Shown here piece after piece: positions 4,823 through 11,694 of a stretch of 42,221 nt of DNA. The stretch covers positions 1 through 42,221 of the IMG/VR virus record IMGVR_UViG_3300012001_000002, one strand, 5' to 3'. The first letter of the stretch is position 1, and each line of letters opens with the position of its first letter. Below the pieces are notes generated by a model. The model did no database searches. It saw only the letters and a list, made by a program, of their open reading frames with translations, and was not told the origin of the DNA. A program made the translations under genes and the position numbers. Origin of the DNA: a virus.

Positions 4823-4972
4823 TTACCCTTTCTGGCCTCGTTCTCCAAGTGAGTTGCAAACGGAACAGCGGCGCAAACTCTCCAGCCAGACGATCCACCC
4901 AGACCCGCCACAGCTCTCACATGTGGCCGGGCTGACGAGGTCGAGCTCGGGATCCCGCCGCTTCGTCTTCAC
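4823..4972 (-). CDS. Small zinc-ribbon protein (DnaJ-type CxxCxGxG-like)
   Basis: A 49-residue protein beginning with GTG at 4972, which overlaps the helicase stop (GTGA), and ending at TAA 4823. It has CESCGGSGW and CSVCNSLGERG, two CxxC knuckles of the DnaJ zinc-finger style, after a basic N-terminus (KTKRRDPE). Probably a metal-bound adaptor; function unknown. Confidence 0.7.
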   Translation of the reverse strand: MKTKRRDPELDLVSPATCESCGGSGWIVWLESLRRCSVCNSLGERGQKG

Positions 4973-7917
4973 TGGCGTCCCAGTAGCTTGCCGACCAGGT
5001 CGCCCAGGACCTTGGTGTCGTCCATCGCGCGGCCCTCGGTGGCGGCGTCCACGACTGCGGCCTTGGACAGGATCAGGTCAGAGATCATCTCGTCGATCGT
5101 ATTCTGCGCCAACAGCCAGTACGAGGTCACGCTGTCCTTCTGGCCGATGCGATGGCAGCGATCCTCGGCCTGCGCCATCTCGGGAAGGTTCCAGCCCTGC
5201 TCCACGAACGCCACGTTGGAGGCGGCGGTGAGTGTGACGCCGAGTCCGCCGGCCTTGAGACTGCAGACGATCAGGCGGCAGTTGGGATCCTGCTGGAAGC
5301 GGTCGACGTTGGCCTGGCGGGTGTACATGCTGTCATCGCCGAGGATCTGCGCACAGCCGGGGTGTTGGCGGATGAGCTCGGCCTGGATCTCGCGATGATG
5401 GGCGAACAGGACGATTTTGGATCCCGACTCGAGGAAGTTGCTGACCCACTCGCCCACGCCCTTGAGCTTGCCCTGTGCGGCCATCAGGCGCAGCTTGGAG
5501 ATCCTCACCAGGACCTCGGCGCGCTCGGCCACCTCAGCGGCTGCCGCCCCCTCCCGCTCCCGCAGCCAGCGGATCAGGTCCTGGCTGGCGTACTCGTACT
5601 CGCGGCGGTTGGTGAGGTCGAAGGGGACTGCGGTGCGCTGCTTCGGTGGGAGCTCGGTGAGCACCTCGAGCTTGAGCCGGCGCACGTAACACACTGCCCT
5701 CAGCCGGCGATTGAGCTCCTGCAGGGGGGTGGTGCCCGCGGCGCCGAGGTATCGCTTGTTGAAGTCATGCCAGCCGCCCATATCATCGAGGCGGCCGAGG
5801 ACCTCCAGCTGGGTGATGAGCTCGGCCGGGCGATTCAGCAACGGGGTCCCGCTCAGCATGATCCGATAGGGGCGGTCCTGGGCGATGGCCTTGGCGGCCC
5901 GGGTGCGCTGGGCCTTGCGGGTCTTGAGCGCGTGGGCCTCATCGAACACCACGGCTTTGAAGTTGCGGTGTGCGAGCTCCTCCTCGCGGGCGGCCAGGAG
6001 ATCGTAGTTCACGATGCAGATCTCAGCCTCGAAGCCGTAGAACAGGGGATTCTCGGCCGCGCGGCCGGCGAGGATCTCCACTGAACGGTGCGGCAGCCAG
6101 GTCTTTGCCTCCCGGGCCCAGTTGAGTTTGAGCGATGCGGGGCAGACCACCAGCGCGGGGAACGCGGCGGCGCCCTCCAGGGTCGCCAGGGCCTGCACGG
6201 TGTTGTGCGTGACGACGTAGTTGCGAGTCAGATACGTGTGCGACGGATGCTCAACTCGGATGCACTGCGCATCCTCGACACCGTCCTCGATGATCGCCTT
6301 GATGATGCGACGCGGCCCGTACTTTACCGCCGGCGCCCAGTTCAGCGCCTTTCGCGCCAACCGGAACGGACACACGTCGAGCTTGACGTGCACGCGGTAG
6401 AACAGTGAACCGTCCTCGAGTGTCCGCGTGGCGCGCCGGACGACCCCGCCCAGGCTTTGCGCCAACTCGGTTACGGCATCGGCCAGATCTAGGCTCTTGC
6501 TACCGTACTCGGCCACGCCGTAGTTGGTGCGGTATCCGTCTGTGTCGAGCAGCCCGCGGAGAAGGTCTAGGCGTGCGGCCTGCGCGGCGACCAGGTATGC
6601 GCCTGGGACGAACTTGGTCGCTGAGCCGCGCCCCATTAGGCCGAGTTCCTTGAGGCTCCGAATCAGCCAATTGGCACGGCCAGCGCCGGGACCAACCAGC
6701 CGGGACGCGTACTGGGCGGGTAGCTTCCTGGCTTCGATACCGGGTAGCCGGGCCGAAATTTCGGCGGCGAGCTCGGGGTCGGAGGTGGTGAAGTTCACGC
6801 TCTGCTGGCTGATCCCGCCATCCCCCAGGATCAGCCCCAGCACATAAGGGTCGATCGGCAGCGGGTTCGACGTGGTGAAGGTCACCGGCGCGGTCAGGGG
6901 GATCTTCCAAGACAGCGACCCGACGCCATCCTTGAGGGTACTGGCAATTGCGCGGGTGGTCATGACCCGATGCTTCCCGCCAGTACGCGGGTTACGCGCG
7001 GCGCTGTCATTGCGGACGTGCTGGACCCGCCAAAGGTGATCCCACGTCGCCCGGGTCCAGCTGCCGTCAGTGAATTCGACGCGGACGATCTGTTGCGGCC
7101 CCTGCGGGAACACGCCGGTCACCAATGTCGGCTGCCCGTCCTGAGCGACGACCTGGTCGCCAACACGGATTCCCGCCATAGGGCGCCAACCGGACGGGGT
7201 AAGCACAGGCTCCGAGAGGGGCTGTGCCTTGCCCAGGCCCATCTCATCAGCGATGAACAGCCTCTTGGCCCGCAGCGCGTATTCCACACCGGCCCGCTGG
7301 AAGGGGCGGAGCTCACCTCCGAGGTTGGGGACGTGTACGTCCGAATCGGTGGCCACGGACGCGGCGGTACGCAATTTGAGTTCAGAAATCGCGGCGGCGG
7401 CCTTGGGCGAATACGAAAATCCGTACTGTACGGCAAAGGAATCCAAAGCCTCCCAGCCGGCCAGGGGGACGGTCCAGAATTTGCGGTTGCCGTCAAAGCG
7501 GCGGCCGGGGATGTTGCGGACCTCCAGGACCATGGCGGGGGAGTAGGGGAACGCGAGGGCGAACAGGGCGCCGTTGAACTGGACCGTGAGCGAAGGGGCG
7601 ACGCCGGGGAGCTCGGCCGTAGCCACCGACGCCGCAGGGGCATCATAGGCCACGTCGACGTGATCGGGCTCGGGGATGGCGTCGTACTCGATGCCGATGC
7701 GGGTCAGCTGGCGGCGGTAGTGGCGAACCATGCGGTGGGCGGCGCTGGCCTGCCTGGGGGACCAGGCGGCCTGGCGGGCGAGGGAGCGGCCGAAGGTGGC
7801 ATCGTACTTGCTCCAGCCGGCATCGTCGCGGTAGCGCGCGCCATCGCAGCGGGCGGTGAGGACGCGCACAGCGGCCATGAGCTCGGGATACGTGCCCGGG
7901 GCCGTGGTGGCAGTCAC
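4969..7917 (-). CDS. SNF2-family, SMARCAL1-like helicase interrupted by an intein
   Basis: A 982-residue precursor starting with GTG 7917 (GTGA overlap). Removing the intein (231-572) leaves about 640 residues. Residues 108-170 resemble the HARP/annealing-helicase segment, including RFDGNRKFWTVPLAGWEAL. Walker A is ADEMGLGK/T (split by the intein), the DEAH box is at 659-662, LSGTPLLN (motif III) at 688-695, and the C-terminal helicase lobe has SLKAGGLGVTLTAAS and QAEDRCHRIGQ (motif VI). This ATPase family remodels or anneals forked DNA. It is the only replication-type motor visible in the genome. Confidence 0.95.
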   Translation of the reverse strand: MTATTAPGTYPELMAAVRVLTARCDGARYRDDAGWSKYDATFGRSLARQAAWSPRQASAAHRMVRHYRRQLTRIGIEYDAIPEPDHVDVAYDAPAASVATAELPGVAPSLTVQFNGALFALAFPYSPAMVLEVRNIPGRRFDGNRKFWTVPLAGWEALDSFAVQYGFSYSPKAAAAISELKLRTAASVATDSDVHVPNLGGELRPFQRAGVEYALRAKRLFIADEMGLGKAQPLSEPVLTPSGWRPMAGIRVGDQVVAQDGQPTLVTGVFPQGPQQIVRVEFTDGSWTRATWDHLWRVQHVRNDSAARNPRTGGKHRVMTTRAIASTLKDGVGSLSWKIPLTAPVTFTTSNPLPIDPYVLGLILGDGGISQQSVNFTTSDPELAAEISARLPGIEARKLPAQYASRLVGPGAGRANWLIRSLKELGLMGRGSATKFVPGAYLVAAQAARLDLLRGLLDTDGYRTNYGVAEYGSKSLDLADAVTELAQSLGGVVRRATRTLEDGSLFYRVHVKLDVCPFRLARKALNWAPAVKYGPRRIIKAIIEDGVEDAQCIRVEHPSHTYLTRNYVVTHNTVQALATLEGAAAFPALVVCPASLKLNWAREAKTWLPHRSVEILAGRAAENPLFYGFEAEICIVNYDLLAAREEELAHRNFKAVVFDEAHALKTRKAQRTRAAKAIAQDRPYRIMLSGTPLLNRPAELITQLEVLGRLDDMGGWHDFNKRYLGAAGTTPLQELNRRLRAVCYVRRLKLEVLTELPPKQRTAVPFDLTNRREYEYASQDLIRWLREREGAAAAEVAERAEVLVRISKLRLMAAQGKLKGVGEWVSNFLESGSKIVLFAHHREIQAELIRQHPGCAQILGDDSMYTRQANVDRFQQDPNCRLIVCSLKAGGLGVTLTAASNVAFVEQGWNLPEMAQAEDRCHRIGQKDSVTSYWLLAQNTIDEMISDLILSKAAVVDAATEGRAMDDTKVLGDLVGKLLGRQ
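6202..7227 (-). mobile_element. Class 3-type intein with LAGLIDADG homing endonuclease
   Basis: An in-frame 342-residue insertion (helicase residues 231-572) between the Lys and Thr of Walker A. It starts with Ala (AQPLSEPVLTPSGW), not Cys or Ser, and ends VVTHN followed by Thr 573. Block B is TRATWDHLW (Trp 296) and block F is AQCIRVEHPSHTYLT (Cys 552). Ala1 with Trp/Cys/Thr is the known mark of class 3 inteins, which use the block F Cys as first nucleophile. Two LAGLIDADG-like motifs, LGLILGDGG (360-368) and LRGLLDTDG (453-461), indicate an endonuclease that may still be active. Confidence 0.9.
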
Positions 7918-8150
7918 AGGGCCAGCGTACCTTGGCGATACTCAGAGGCCCGGGCGGCAAGGTCGTAGCCGAGAGCAGCCGCAACCTCGCCCGCGGCGCT
8001 GAGGCGGTCGTTGCGGACCACGGCGAGCGTACCGGACACCAGGCGCACGCGGGAGTGCTGGCGGGTCTCAGGGGCCACGTAGGCGGCCGGGCGGCCCCCG
8101 TCGATCAGGACGGGGGCGCCGGCGGCGTAGGGGGCAACGTACGGGGTCAT
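7914..8150 (-). CDS. Hypothetical protein
   Basis: A 78-residue protein, start ATG 8150 (ATGA overlap with the membrane peptide). Beta-rich N-terminus (PVLIDGGRPAAYVAPETRQH) and a helical C-terminus (AAGEVAAALGYDLAARASEY). It ends inside the helicase start. Family not recognised. Confidence 0.65.
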   Translation of the reverse strand: MTPYVAPYAAGAPVLIDGGRPAAYVAPETRQHSRVRLVSGTLAVVRNDRLSAAGEVAAALGYDLAARASEYRQGTLAL

Positions 8151-8254
8151 CGTGTCACCACGAGGATGAACAGCAGGGTGGCGACGCAGGCGAGCATGAC
8201 GCCGAGGACCATCGCCAGCATGGCGCGCTCGACCTTGCGCTGCTGGTCGTTCAT
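8147..8254 (-). CDS. 35-residue single-pass membrane peptide
   Basis: Starts at ATG 8254, overlapping the upstream stop (ATGA), and ends in TGA overlapping the next ATG. Short charged N-terminus (MNDQQRKVERAM) and one long hydrophobic helix (MVLGVMLACVATLLFILVV). Perfect fit between its neighbours supports it being translated. Function unknown. Confidence 0.65.
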   Translation of the reverse strand: MNDQQRKVERAMLAMVLGVMLACVATLLFILVVTR

Positions 8255-8448
8255 GCCGTGATCCCGCGGAACTGGCGTTTGATGATGGTTAGGGAGATCT
8301 CAACGGCGGTGAGACCGGCGCGGAACTCCTGCGGGGTCTGTGAGTGCGGCGTGAGGATGTTCACGTGAGCGGCCAGCCGATCCAGCGAATAATCGAGCGC
8401 GTCCGCGGCATAGGGGTCTTGTTGGCCGATGATCACATTGGCTTTCAT
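8251..8448 (-). CDS. Hypothetical protein
   Basis: A 65-residue mostly helical protein (DALDYSLDRLAAHVNIL, then TAVEISLTIIKRQFRG), coupled on both sides by ATGA overlaps. Family not recognised. Confidence 0.65.
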   Translation of the reverse strand: MKANVIIGQQDPYAADALDYSLDRLAAHVNILTPHSQTPQEFRAGLTAVEISLTIIKRQFRGITA

Positions 8449-8639
8449 GCCGCCACAGCCGCGCGGTAGCGGTCTTCGAGGCGGGCGGCTGTATCGCAGG
8501 CGCGGGAGCAGGCCCGGGCGTAGCGGTCGATGATGTGCTGTGAGCGGCTCAGGCGGATCACGCAGCGGTACTCAGCAGAGGCGGCCTGCGCCTCTACCAG
8601 CGCTTTGGCCTTCTCGGTGGCCAGGGTGTACAGGTCCAT
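8445..8639 (-). CDS. Small helical hypothetical protein
   Basis: A 64-residue protein starting at ATG 8639 (MDLYTLATEKAKALVEAQA), with GAGG nine bases ahead in the motif CATGAGGTCAAG, which also precedes the gene starting at 10053. Entirely helical and Ala/Arg rich. It is the first gene downstream of the hammerhead-like element at 8669-8720. Function unknown. Confidence 0.65.
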   Translation of the reverse strand: MDLYTLATEKAKALVEAQAASAEYRCVIRLSRSQHIIDRYARACSRACDTAARLEDRYRAAVAA

Positions 8640-8668
8640 GTTTCTTGACCTCATGTGGGCTCGGGCTG

Positions 8669-8720
8669 GAGCTCATCAGCGGCAGCGTAACTGCCGGACC
8701 CGCCGAAGCGGGTTTCGCTC
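8669..8720 (-). ncRNA. Type II hammerhead ribozyme candidate, copy 1
   Basis: Read on the leftward strand: stem II 5' arm GAGC (8720-8717); core GAAA (8716-8713); stem III ACCCGC-UUCG-GCGGGU (8713-8698, sharing the last A of the core); the cleavage-site C (8697), giving GUC; stem I CGGCAG-UUACG-CUGCCG (8696-8680); core CUGAUGA (8679-8673); stem II 3' arm GCUC (8672-8669). All conserved hammerhead core bases and the G10.1-C11.1 pair are present. Stems I and III are closed and stem II is open, which is the type II topology. Predicted cut between 8697 and 8696. Pattern-based call, not tested by covariance search. Confidence 0.82.
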
Positions 8721-8731
8721 TTGAGTCGCGG

Positions 8732-9160
8732 TTATATCCACTCCTGGCGAAGGGCATAGCCGCCGTCGCTGTGCTGCTTGTTGTCGCGGCTGCCGCGGTT
8801 GCTGTGGTCATTGCTCGGGCACCGCTCGCCGATGCAGGCGAAGCCGTCAGGGAACAGGCAGCGGCCGAGGTTGTAGGCCAGCGCGAAGCCCATGTCCATC
8901 CCGGCGCCACCCATGCGGATGCAGTCCTTGCGGGTGTTGAAATCACCGGCGCCGGCCTTCGCTGCCTGGTAGCTCAGCCAGAATTTGACGGGGGGCCGGT
9001 CGGGCAGATCGTCCGGCTTGAAGGTGTACAGGTCGATGTCGCGGGACATGCCCGACGCGCTCACGTGGCGCAGGACGGTATAGACGGTGTCGCCCGGGCT
9101 CAGGGTCTCGCGCAGGTTGACGCGCGCTTCGTCGCGGTCCCTGATCTGTTGCTTAGTCAT
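8732..9160 (-). CDS. Conserved phage/actinobacterial-type hypothetical protein between two ribozyme candidates
   Basis: A 142-residue protein of a recognisable family without known function. It has GDTVYTVLRHVSASGMSRDI near the N-terminus, GGAGMDMGFALAYNLGR in the middle, and CIGERCPSNDHSNRG followed by GGYALRQEWI at the end. Conserved Cys/His/Asp residues suggest a metal site. ATG 9160 is preceded by GAGGTAAAG. It has its own leader and its own downstream gap, each holding a hammerhead-like element, so it may be cut out as a single-gene mRNA. Confidence 0.8.
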   Translation of the reverse strand: MTKQQIRDRDEARVNLRETLSPGDTVYTVLRHVSASGMSRDIDLYTFKPDDLPDRPPVKFWLSYQAAKAGAGDFNTRKDCIRMGGAGMDMGFALAYNLGRCLFPDGFACIGERCPSNDHSNRGSRDNKQHSDGGYALRQEWI

Positions 9161-9190
9161 GACTGTGCTTTACCTCGTGGGACGAATCTG

Positions 9191-9258
9191 GCCCATCATC
9201 AGCGCCGGCAATACCGGCGGACCTCGCCCCAACTCGAACGGCTGGCGAGGTTTCAGGC
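9191..9258 (-). ncRNA. Type II hammerhead ribozyme candidate, copy 2
   Basis: Same order as copy 1 on the leftward strand: GCCU (9258-9255); GAAA (9254-9251); stem III ACCUCGCC ... GGCGAGGU (9251-9244 with 9228-9221, 15-base loop); cleavage-site C (9220); stem I CGCCGG-UAUUG-CCGGCG (9219-9203); CUGAUGA (9202-9196); an extra U (9195); GGGC (9194-9191). Stem I is a different sequence from copy 1 but still pairs perfectly. The inserted U and a G-U closing pair in stem II deviate from the consensus and could lower activity. Predicted cut between 9220 and 9219. Confidence 0.7.
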
Positions 9259-9269
9259 TGGCAGGTGGT

Positions 9270-9473
9270 TCAGAACATAGGCAGCTGGTCCACCTCGGAT
9301 CCTTCGACCGACATGAGCTCGAGGCGGAAGGATGAAGCCGCCAGCGCCTCACGCAGGAGCTCGCCCACGCCGCGCGCGGTGGCGTCCCAGGTCTCAACCT
9401 CGATCGGCAGTGGCTCGGCGCACAGTGGGCAGGTGAACCCCAGCGCGCAGTTGTCGCAGGTCCGCCGCATCAT
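9270..9473 (-). CDS. Small zinc-ribbon protein
   Basis: A 67-residue protein starting at the first of two ATGs (9473), overlapping the upstream stop (ATGA). CDNCALGFTCPLC is a clear two-knuckle zinc site at the N-terminus, followed by a helix (GVGELLREALAASSFRLELM). A longer form from 9605 would run through the upstream gene and is rejected. Function unknown. Confidence 0.7.
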   Translation of the reverse strand: MMRRTCDNCALGFTCPLCAEPLPIEVETWDATARGVGELLREALAASSFRLELMSVEGSEVDQLPMF

Positions 9474-9883
9474 GCCACCACCTGCTCGCCGGCGGTCGCC
9501 AGCATCGCCGAAAACTCGCCGTACAGCGCGTCCACGGTGGCGGCCATGGTGCGCACCCTCGCGCCCGCCACCACGATCTCGGCATCGGTGCCCGCCGCAT
9601 ACCATGCGGTCAGGGCCCAGTCCGCGCGGCTCATGGCCTTGCGCATTGCCGAGCGCGTGGTAAGCATCATCGCCGTCGGGGCGGTCTGCTCGACCTCGCG
9701 CTTGCCCATGTTCTCGGCCGCCGCGTCACACTTCGGGCAACGCTCGTCGGGTGACTCCAGTTCACCGCGCAGCCAATCGCCTACGCGCTGGCCACAAAGG
9801 GTGCGGGATTCACCAGCCGTCAGCTGATGCTTATGGAACTGCGAGCCGTCACGCTTGCTCGGCCACGTAAACATCGCGCTCAT
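9470..9883 (-). CDS. Zinc-binding hypothetical protein
   Basis: A 137-residue protein starting at ATG 9883 (ATGA overlap with the upstream stop). FHKHQLTAGESRTLCGQRV followed by CPKCDAAAE looks like an H-C-C-C zinc site. The rest is helical (MRKAMSRADWALTAWYAAG). Function unknown. Confidence 0.7.
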   Translation of the reverse strand: MSAMFTWPSKRDGSQFHKHQLTAGESRTLCGQRVGDWLRGELESPDERCPKCDAAAENMGKREVEQTAPTAMMLTTRSAMRKAMSRADWALTAWYAAGTDAEIVVAGARVRTMAATVDALYGEFSAMLATAGEQVVA

Positions 9884-10053
9884 TCGCCGCGACCATCGCC
9901 ATGGCAGATCGGGCACTCGATCGCGTTGGGAGTGCAGAAATGGTCATCCATTCCGTCATCCGTCAAAGCGGCGGCATAACACGGCTGGCAGACCAGCGGG
10001 ACGAACGTCCCTGAAGCGGCGAACATCTCACCGCAGTTCTCGCATTCGATCAT
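9880..10053 (-). CDS. Small zinc-ribbon protein, first gene after promoter at 10100
   Basis: A 57-residue protein, MIECENCGEMFAASGTF then VCQPCYAAAL and a terminal ECPICHGDGRGE: three CxxC knuckles, the last in the DnaJ zinc-finger style. ATG 10053 has GAGG seven bases ahead within CATGAGGTCAAG, and a strong promoter lies about 50 bases upstream. Function unknown. Confidence 0.75.
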   Translation of the reverse strand: MIECENCGEMFAASGTFVPLVCQPCYAAALTDDGMDDHFCTPNAIECPICHGDGRGE

Positions 10054-10099
10054 GACTTGACCTCATGAACTCAGATCCCGGAATTAGGACCTAGGCAGG

Positions 10100-10128
10100 A
10101 TACTAACACCCTTGTCAACCCCTGTCAA
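10100..10128 (-). promoter_or_regulatory. Leftward sigma70-type promoter with doubled TTGACA
   Basis: On the minus strand TTGACA (10128-10123), 17 bases, TAGTAT (10105-10100). A second TTGACA (10118-10113) lies inside the spacer, ten bases after the first. The promoter at 12142-12170 is laid out the same way. It would start a leader of about 40 bases ahead of the gene at 9880-10053. Confidence 0.75.
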
Positions 10129-10324
10129 CCCCCCAATATTCCCAGCGTACTAGCGACCTCCCGGACTCCCGCGCGCAAGCCTCATGCGCCCCAGCGGACC
10201 CCTGACGGTCGCGTCCCACGGTGCCTATGCAGACCTCTATGGGTGTACGTAGGTATGTACGCGCACGCGAGGGGGGCTCTGTTACATGGGGTGCAATGAG
10301 AGCGACGATGGCTTGAGATCAAAC

Positions 10325-10354
10325 AACGTCGCAAAAGGTATAGGATGCGACGTT
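10325..10354. repeat. Perfect 9-bp inverted repeat
   Basis: AACGTCGCA and TGCGACGTT separated by 12 A/G-rich bases. Not followed by a T tract on either strand, so it is more likely a binding site than a terminator. Confidence 0.7.
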
Positions 10355-10357
10355 TCG

Positions 10358-10389
10358 TGTAACAGTGTGAGATCAACGCGGCTGTTACA
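10358..10389. repeat. 8-bp inverted repeat TGTAACAG/CTGTTACA
   Basis: The arms lie 16 bases apart and a third copy of CTGTTACA lies upstream at 10279-10286, giving three related half-sites within 111 bases. Confidence 0.65.
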
Positions 10390-10487
10390 TGCCCTCCAGC
10401 CCCCCAGGGCCACCGGAGAGGGTTTAAACCGCACGCATCTCTATATATGTGCATGCCCGCAGAAAAGTTTGCGCTGTGGCTGGCTGG

Positions 10488-10868
10488 TCAGGGTGGGGGT
10501 TGTTGGGGTGGTGGAACCTGGGCTGGTGGTCTCTGGTGATTGGGTTGCTTTCTGCTCAGTAGATCAGCGAGTGATAGCGAGCGGTACTACGGCGGGCGGG
10601 ACGCTCCCGGTGGTGGCGGTCCACTGCCTGGTCCTGGCCGTCCTCCTCCCCGTCCCGATTGAAGCCCGGACCCGGCTGCGTTGGTGGGAGGTATGGCTAT
10701 CGCCGGGCCGTTTCCGGGTTGTACCGATGCGGGCCTGACTTGGATCTACTGCCTGGCTTTGGTGGCTTTGAGCTTTCGCTCCTCCAATTCCACCTTGTTG
10801 TGAACTCCAGCGCCTCCACCGATCAAATCCCGGCTGCGCCATTGCAGGAGCTTCGAGGAGTGGTTCGG
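10488..10868 (-). other. Amber-punctuated in-frame continuation of the upstream gene
   Basis: Directly after the TAG of the gene at 10869-11228, the same frame stays free of TGA and TAA for about 125 codons, broken only by TAG at 10746-10748 and 10587-10589, and ends at TGA 10488-10490. The text is protein-like: HNKVELEERKLKATKARQ, then VRPASVQPGNGPAIAIPP, then a Gly/Pro-rich part, then SLADLLSRKQPNHQRPP. It may be a read-through extension, a decayed 3' part of the gene, or chance in GC-rich DNA. I see no start codon with a ribosome site within it. Confidence 0.4.
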
Positions 10869-11228
10869 CTAGGCAGTCGTTCCCGGGTTCAGTGGGCCGT
10901 ACGGGTTATTTGATTCGATGATGACGTTGCCGCTTCCATCCACGCGCAGATCCCGGGGGATCTTTCGCGAGGTGTAGACGGGGAGATCTGTGTGGTCGGG
11001 CGCTTCCATCTGTGGCTGGCCGGCTGGTTCTGGTTGGGTCCGGGGCAGCGGGCGGATGCGCGACTTCTTGAGCGGGGTCTGGGGGATGGCTACTCTGCTG
11101 GCGTTGGCGAACAGGCGGTCATCATTGGCCTTGCGCTCGAGATAGTGGTTGTACGAGCAGTAGGCGCGGCCCGGGGGGTTTCGCTTCTCGCACCAAGGAA
11201 GACAGCAGACCCGGGGGTAGGTGCTCAT
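10869..11228 (-). CDS. Zinc-binding hypothetical protein with basic linker
   Basis: A 119-residue protein starting at ATG 11228 (ATGA overlap); an earlier in-frame start at 11240 is less likely. The N-terminus has CCLPWCEKRNPPGRAYCSYN, a C-C-C zinc site, followed by NHYLERK. The rest is basic and Pro-rich, with DLRVDGSGNVIIESNNPYGP near the end. It stops at TAG, one of only three amber stops in the leftward unit, and the frame continues beyond it. Function unknown. Confidence 0.7.
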   Translation of the reverse strand: MSTYPRVCCLPWCEKRNPPGRAYCSYNHYLERKANDDRLFANASRVAIPQTPLKKSRIRPLPRTQPEPAGQPQMEAPDHTDLPVYTSRKIPRDLRVDGSGNVIIESNNPYGPLNPGTTA

Positions 11229-11479
11229 TGGCGCAGGCACTTGACGAGCTCCTGGTGGACGCGCTCGGCCAGGCGCCGGTCGACAACCGGGGCGTCATCA
11301 CCCAGCAGGAGCATCTGCACCCAGCCGGGCGCCTTCTCCATGTCATAGAGCTCGTGCAGTTGGCGCAGGGCGGCCATGCGCTCAGCCTGGATCTCGCGAT
11401 GCCGCGTATCGAGGTCCACGAAGGTCTCGCGGAGCAGGTCGACGGTGAGGGGTCGGCTCTCGCCGGGGCCGCGGCTCAC
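11225..11479 (-). CDS. Hypothetical helical protein
   Basis: An 84-residue protein starting at GTG 11479 (GTGA overlap). Long charged helix (RETFVDLDTRHREIQAERMA, then ALRQLHELYDMEKAP), then DDAPVVDRRLAERVHQELVK. Family not recognised. Confidence 0.65.
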   Translation of the reverse strand: MSRGPGESRPLTVDLLRETFVDLDTRHREIQAERMAALRQLHELYDMEKAPGWVQMLLLGDDAPVVDRRLAERVHQELVKCLRQ

Positions 11480-11694
11480 AGCCGGGCCCGCTGGCGCAGT
11501 TCGTCGAACAAGTCCTCGTAGTGTTTGCGAGCGACCTTGTCCCCGCGCTGGTCCGCCGCCATTGCCGAACGTCGAGCAGCCTCAATCCTGGAGTTCAACA
11601 CCGGCGAGCGGTGGCGCCAGCAGAAGAGTTGTTCAGCATCCTCGGCGATGTACAGCTTCCCGCACTTCTCGCAGGTCCGCATATCGTGCTGCAT
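11476..11694 (-). CDS. Small zinc-finger protein
   Basis: A 72-residue protein starting at ATG 11694, which overlaps the stop of the membrane peptide (TGATG). CEKCGKLYIAEDAEQLFCWRH forms a C-C-C-H zinc finger, followed by a basic helical tail (RRSAMAADQRGDKVARKHY). A longer form from 11850 would read through the peptide gene and is rejected. Function unknown. Confidence 0.7.
   Translation of the reverse strand: MQHDMRTCEKCGKLYIAEDAEQLFCWRHRSPVLNSRIEAARRSAMAADQRGDKVARKHYEDLFDELRQRARL

Follow-up and report, generated by a model that had tools for sequence, protein, structure and literature searches.

Hammerheads at phage gene junctions

Type II hammerhead ribozymes were described in 2011, often grouped on either side of single prophage genes (Perreault et al. 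2011, PMC3088659). Tandem phage hammerheads were found to cut in vitro, and the set from Agrobacterium tumefaciens did so in E. coli as well (PMC3088659); in 2017 their function in prokaryotes was still regarded as an open question (PMC6155905). Here we describe two such elements, HHR1 and HHR2, in the IMG/VR virus record IMGVR_UViG_3300012001_000002, the whole 42,221-nucleotide stretch of which is referred to below as the window. Because clusters flanking single prophage genes have been described since 2011 (PMC3088659), HHR1 and HHR2 add to a known kind. The author of an earlier note on this DNA was not aware of hammerheads at this position in such a phage module, but the position alone is no surprise: hammerheads between small phage genes have been published (PMC3088659) and are common in viral contigs.

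Compared with the described type II hammerheads (RF02276; PMC3088659), HHR1 has the same core, the same permutation (stems I and III closed, stem II open) and an intergenic position among phage genes, but its stem I is short and carries a GUNANGC loop, the pseudoknot between loop I and the tail is missing, and the score falls below the Rfam cut-off. The tandem hammerheads of the A. tumefaciens prophage (ardA and other genes; PMC3088659) are likewise co-oriented, flank single genes and would process polycistronic RNA, whereas the genes that they bracket differ, and cutting that was shown there in vitro and in E. coli is predicted in the window. HHphage of haloviruses HF1 and HF2, a hammerhead just upstream of an early gene with a mapped transcript 5′ end near the cut, is similar in its placement but comes from an archaeal virus and has a variant core (PMC3088659).

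The ribozyme pair and its neighbourhood

The features of the locus were placed by reading the sequence, by folding, with Rfam, and with R1, a covariance model built from 39 gapless phage copies, the window excluded:

8669..8720, minus strand: HHR1, complete type II hammerhead, predicted cut 8697/8696 (sequence, Rfam, R1, fold)
8698..8713, minus strand: HHR1 stem III hairpin, UUCG loop (sequence, fold)
8680..8696, minus strand: HHR1 stem I hairpin, loop GUUACGC of the GUNANGC class (sequence, fold)
8673..8679, minus strand: HHR1 core CUGAUGA (sequence)
9191..9258, minus strand: HHR2, variant type II hammerhead, predicted cut 9220/9219 (Rfam, R1, fold)
8732..9160, minus strand: bracketed gene, 142 aa, phrog_12365 (ORF, family match)
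8697..9219, minus strand: predicted single-gene RNA of 523 nt, expected if both ribozymes cut (core alignment)
8445..8639, minus strand: gene downstream of HHR1, 64 aa (69 aa from 8654), Shine-Dalgarno GAGGT at 8652-8648
9270..9605, minus strand: gene upstream of HHR2, its stop ending 11 nt before HHR2
10100..10128, minus strand: promoter-like site TTGACA-17-TAGTAT upstream of the gene cluster (consensus match only)

The minus-strand sequence from 8720 to 8669 is confirmed as a complete type II hammerhead. In order, it consists of GAGC (8720-8717), GAA (8716-8714), stem III (A-CCCGC/UUCG/GCGGG-U, 6 bp), C17 (8697), stem I (CGGCAG/UUACG/CUGCCG, 6 bp), the core CUGAUGA, and GCUC (8672-8669), which pairs with the initial GAGC to form the open stem II of 4 bp. 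Every core base is in place, as are the A15.1-U16.1 and G10.1-C11.1 pairs, and the 52-nt segment alone folds exactly as a hammerhead (-24.4 kcal/mol, z -2.7). Direct reading of the sequence thus bears out the type II architecture with stems I, II and III that the earlier note had proposed on the leftward strand, and core alignment returns the same cut between 8697 and 8696. On this evidence HHR1 is a genuine and probably active ribozyme, with cleavage as a prediction. Its location in an early operon also holds, “early” being a label inferred from the content of the leftward gene cluster (an SNF2-type helicase gene with a LAGLIDADG insert, a Mu Gam-like gene and a methyltransferase). The 77-base intergenic gap given previously is correct if the next gene starts at 8654 but becomes 92 nt if it starts at 8639, which has the better Shine-Dalgarno sequence. 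Finally, the note had described HHR1 only; it is one of two ribozymes that bracket a gene, HHR2 having been missed. Further along the cluster, the 982-aa helicase gene (4969-7917, minus strand) is split by an intein-like insert that carries a LAGLIDADG domain.

HHR2 lies one gene upstream of HHR1 in the same orientation and reads GCCU GAA ACCUCGCC...GGCGAGGU C CGCCG-GUAUUGC-CGGCG CUGAUGA U GGGC, with the hammerhead as its lowest-energy fold. Both elements carry the CUGANGA core, GAA, A15.1-U16.1 and H17, and in both, according to sequence, fold and models, stems I and III are loop-closed and stem II is open. Where HHR1 has the G10.1-C11.1 pair, HHR2 has instead a G.U at 10.1-11.1 of its stem II (GCCU/GGGC) and one U inserted after the core (9195). 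A U between the core CUGANGA and stem II recurs in four other copies (L051, L064, L091 and L134), which together form a recurring type II variant. Each of the two window ribozymes starts 11 nt after a stop codon and is followed, 29-30 nt further on, by an ATG with GAGGT in front of it.

When a 201-nt segment was searched against all Rfam families, HHR1 matched Hammerhead_II (RF02276) with 32.2 bits (E 3.9e-5), and a segment search gave HHR2 26.7 bits (E 1.1e-3). Both are under the Rfam gathering score of 37 bits, which is a curation threshold, not a ribozyme property, and Rfam scans of the whole window list nothing. The check with the Rfam type II model suggested in the earlier note therefore gave a significant hit for HHR1 that stayed below the cut-off; significance is moderate with Rfam and clear with R1, which gave HHR1 65.1 bits (E 1.2e-22) and ranked HHR2 second within the window with 32.6 bits (E 5.5e-10), these E-values being rough. 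The best non-hammerhead match of R1 in the window reached 10.1 bits. Readings of HHR1 as an intrinsic terminator, as rsmX or as sR19 were rejected (Rfam segment search, scan for terminator-like sites).

Related junctions in a cultured phage and in viral contigs

Two contigs (L003 and L004) are 100% identical to the window over 5.6 and 5.8 kb; they therefore represent the same virus and hold no covariation information. A protein scan of genome contigs found no relative, and a search with the helicase matched only the same virus. We examined 38 further viral records that encode a phrog_12365 homologue. In five of them (G009, G012 with two copies, G033, G036 and G038) a credible type II hammerhead lies no more than ∼3 kb from that gene, and the ribozyme is thus not essential to it. 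With only these five records, and Shocker among five isolates, we do not claim an association between the ribozyme and phrog_12365; a 15.6-bit match in Gordonia phage Fury was not counted as a credible copy.

In the cultured Microbacterium phage Shocker (MW507126), gene 64 is homologous to the bracketed phrog_12365 gene (41% identity). The junction between genes 64 and 63 holds a hammerhead that scores 40.0 bits with Rfam, above the cut-off that HHR1 falls short of. It begins 2 nt past the gene 64 stop and leaves 22 nt to the next annotated start, directly after the homologous gene, which is the same junction as that of HHR1. Its stems I and III are longer than those of HHR1, and its pairing between loop I and the tail extends to 5 bp, against at most 3 bp each in HHR1 and HHR2. 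This copy was found by a default genome search and by Rfam, and was missed when L178 was searched with filters off; no copy was found upstream of gene 64.

More widely, a core-only pattern (CGAAAC...GTC...CTGATGAG) occurs in at least 120 stretches of viral contigs, and all three stems are formed by ∼103 of 120 among the matches listed. In the 39-sequence alignment 16 of 16 pairs hold and 13 change on both sides, a count that leans towards structure because the sequences had been filtered for pairing. The placement of these elements follows a numerical rule: for 151 distinct copies, a sample ascertained by one pattern, 72% have the upstream stop between -3 and +5 nt from the ribozyme, compared with 4% for random positions, and the share is 67% when one copy is taken per contig. 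The next start with a Shine-Dalgarno sequence lies a median of 22.5 nt past the ribozyme in related copies, ORFs and starts having been called by simple rules, not by a trained gene finder. Stem III is capped by a GNRA or UNCG tetraloop in 77/111 copies (random-loop expectation 12/256). Contigs with several copies have them co-oriented in 24/24 cases at a median spacing of 438 nt, and one ORF fills at least 70% of the interval in 32 of the 48 inter-copy intervals.

A 17-nt stem I hairpin is present in 102 of the 151 copies, 56 of these having a GUNANGC loop, a pattern that the GUUACGC of HHR1 fits. Pairing between loop I and the tail is not above that of shuffled tails in the short-stem-I copies, whereas in copies with a longer stem I it is seen in 85%, as against 62% for shuffled tails. 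The window copies belong to the short-stem-I subclass without the usual pseudoknot. In 14 test loci (L059-L157) the Rfam cut-off accepts 5 of 55 R1 matches, a rough recall figure given that R1 was trained on some of these loci, which suggests that the subclass is mostly missed at this cut-off and that Rfam-based annotation overlooks most such phage hammerheads. The low Rfam score of HHR1 agrees with this. In the open-access literature we found no paper stating the rule for stop and start placement; this rule, like the pseudoknot-free subclass, may not have been formulated before.

Several individual contigs showed further features. L075 (174-5156, minus strand) carries up to 11 type II hammerheads (R1 matches) in one array, all pointing the same way, over ∼5 kb. 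The type II hammerheads at L078 1187-1253, L156 6731-6801 and L160 near 4982 all have CACUAAAAG as the apical loop of stem III, perhaps a conserved site for binding. Possible type III hammerheads occur beside type II copies on the same contigs at L101 4074 and at 6446 on the minus strand of L147. A tmRNA match above the Rfam cut-off at L130 6081-6146 (minus strand) covers only 66 bases on a 374-position model.

Probable processing of the early mRNA and rival readings

We consider it probable that HHR1 and HHR2 serve as punctuation in the leftward early polycistronic mRNA, cutting it co-transcriptionally into hairpin-capped one-gene mRNAs. Once the polymerase clears a gene junction, the ribozyme would fold between the stop codon and the next ribosome-binding site and would cut between C17 and stem I, at 8697/8696 in HHR1 and 9220/9219 in HHR2. 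In a type II hammerhead the closed stems III and I flank the cut on either side, and for this reason the upstream mRNA would acquire a stable UUCG hairpin at its 3′ end and the downstream mRNA a hairpin at its 5′ end. At HHR1 the upstream product would terminate in the stem III hairpin plus C8697 with a 2′,3′-cyclic phosphate, and the downstream product would open with a 5′-OH followed by the stem I hairpin, which would sit immediately beyond the ribosome footprint. The 142-aa gene would be freed as a 523-nt monocistronic mRNA, and its stability and dosage could be set apart from those of its neighbours. Cleavage, protection of the ends and the effect on expression are what we infer from the observed sequence, fold, relatives and position. 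The locus is a clean ribozyme pair around one gene; together with the numerical placement rule and a cultured phage that has the same junction, it therefore makes the mRNA-processing hypothesis directly testable.

Counted against this explanation are the departures of HHR2 from the consensus, with which it may cut slowly; the absence of the pseudoknot between loop I and the 3′ tail from both HHR1 and HHR2; and, for HHR1 with ∼10-nt flanks, a competing fold ∼4 kcal/mol lower in energy models that ignore the tertiary core of the hammerhead. The pseudoknot is reported to speed type II hammerheads and is common, not universal. We also count against it that, of 18 consensus hammerheads assayed in vitro, 4 failed to cut (PMC3088659), and that only 5 of the 38 other viral records with the gene have a hammerhead.

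Extending the mRNA-processing reading beyond the window, we tentatively propose, with some doubt, that short-stem-I, pseudoknot-free GUNANGC hammerheads are a widespread phage subclass, largely below the Rfam cut-off, that serves as a standard module between genes. With the upstream stop at one end and the next start ∼22 nt beyond the other, each copy would help to divide the early polycistronic RNA into single-gene mRNAs with hairpin caps, and the terminating ribosome may be the cue for cutting.

The hammerheads might instead be real but neutral or selfish sequences that spread among gene junctions, or simply persist there, with little effect on the phage. Their uneven distribution among phages that share the gene, the variable flanking genes and the off-consensus HHR2 would all fit, but strict stop-codon placement, stable caps and a uniform orientation in many contigs hint at selection for function and make this reading unlikely to us, although the placement alone could alternatively come from the purging of copies that hit genes. 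We also regard as improbable a regulated switch in which stem II and GAAA are covered by a ribosome that terminates at the upstream stop, making cleavage dependent on upstream translation or another signal. Stem II does start at the stop in most relatives, inside the footprint of a terminating ribosome, but the window ribozymes start 11 nt past it, at the footprint edge; compact junctions would explain the placement too, and no ligand or protein partner was seen.

Excision of the bracketed segment as a retrozyme-like circular RNA would suit two co-oriented hammerheads flanking a 523-nt unit with compatible ends, but it is very unlikely, since the unit codes for a protein and has a ribosome-binding site of its own, and since spliced or circular products were looked for in such arrays and none detected (Perreault et al., PMC3088659). 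A chance arrangement of hairpins, or a terminator or attenuator hairpin, is scarcely credible: GC-rich genomes often have UUCG-capped GC hairpins, and the stem III hairpin, though nothing else in HHR1, resembles part of rsmX (E 1.9), but stem III is followed by TCCGG without a T-run, no terminator-like site was found on the minus strand at 8000-11600, a looser descriptor had 0 matches in 300 dinucleotide shuffles of the window on both strands (25 Mb), and the independent model R1 matched HHR1 itself at E 1e-22.
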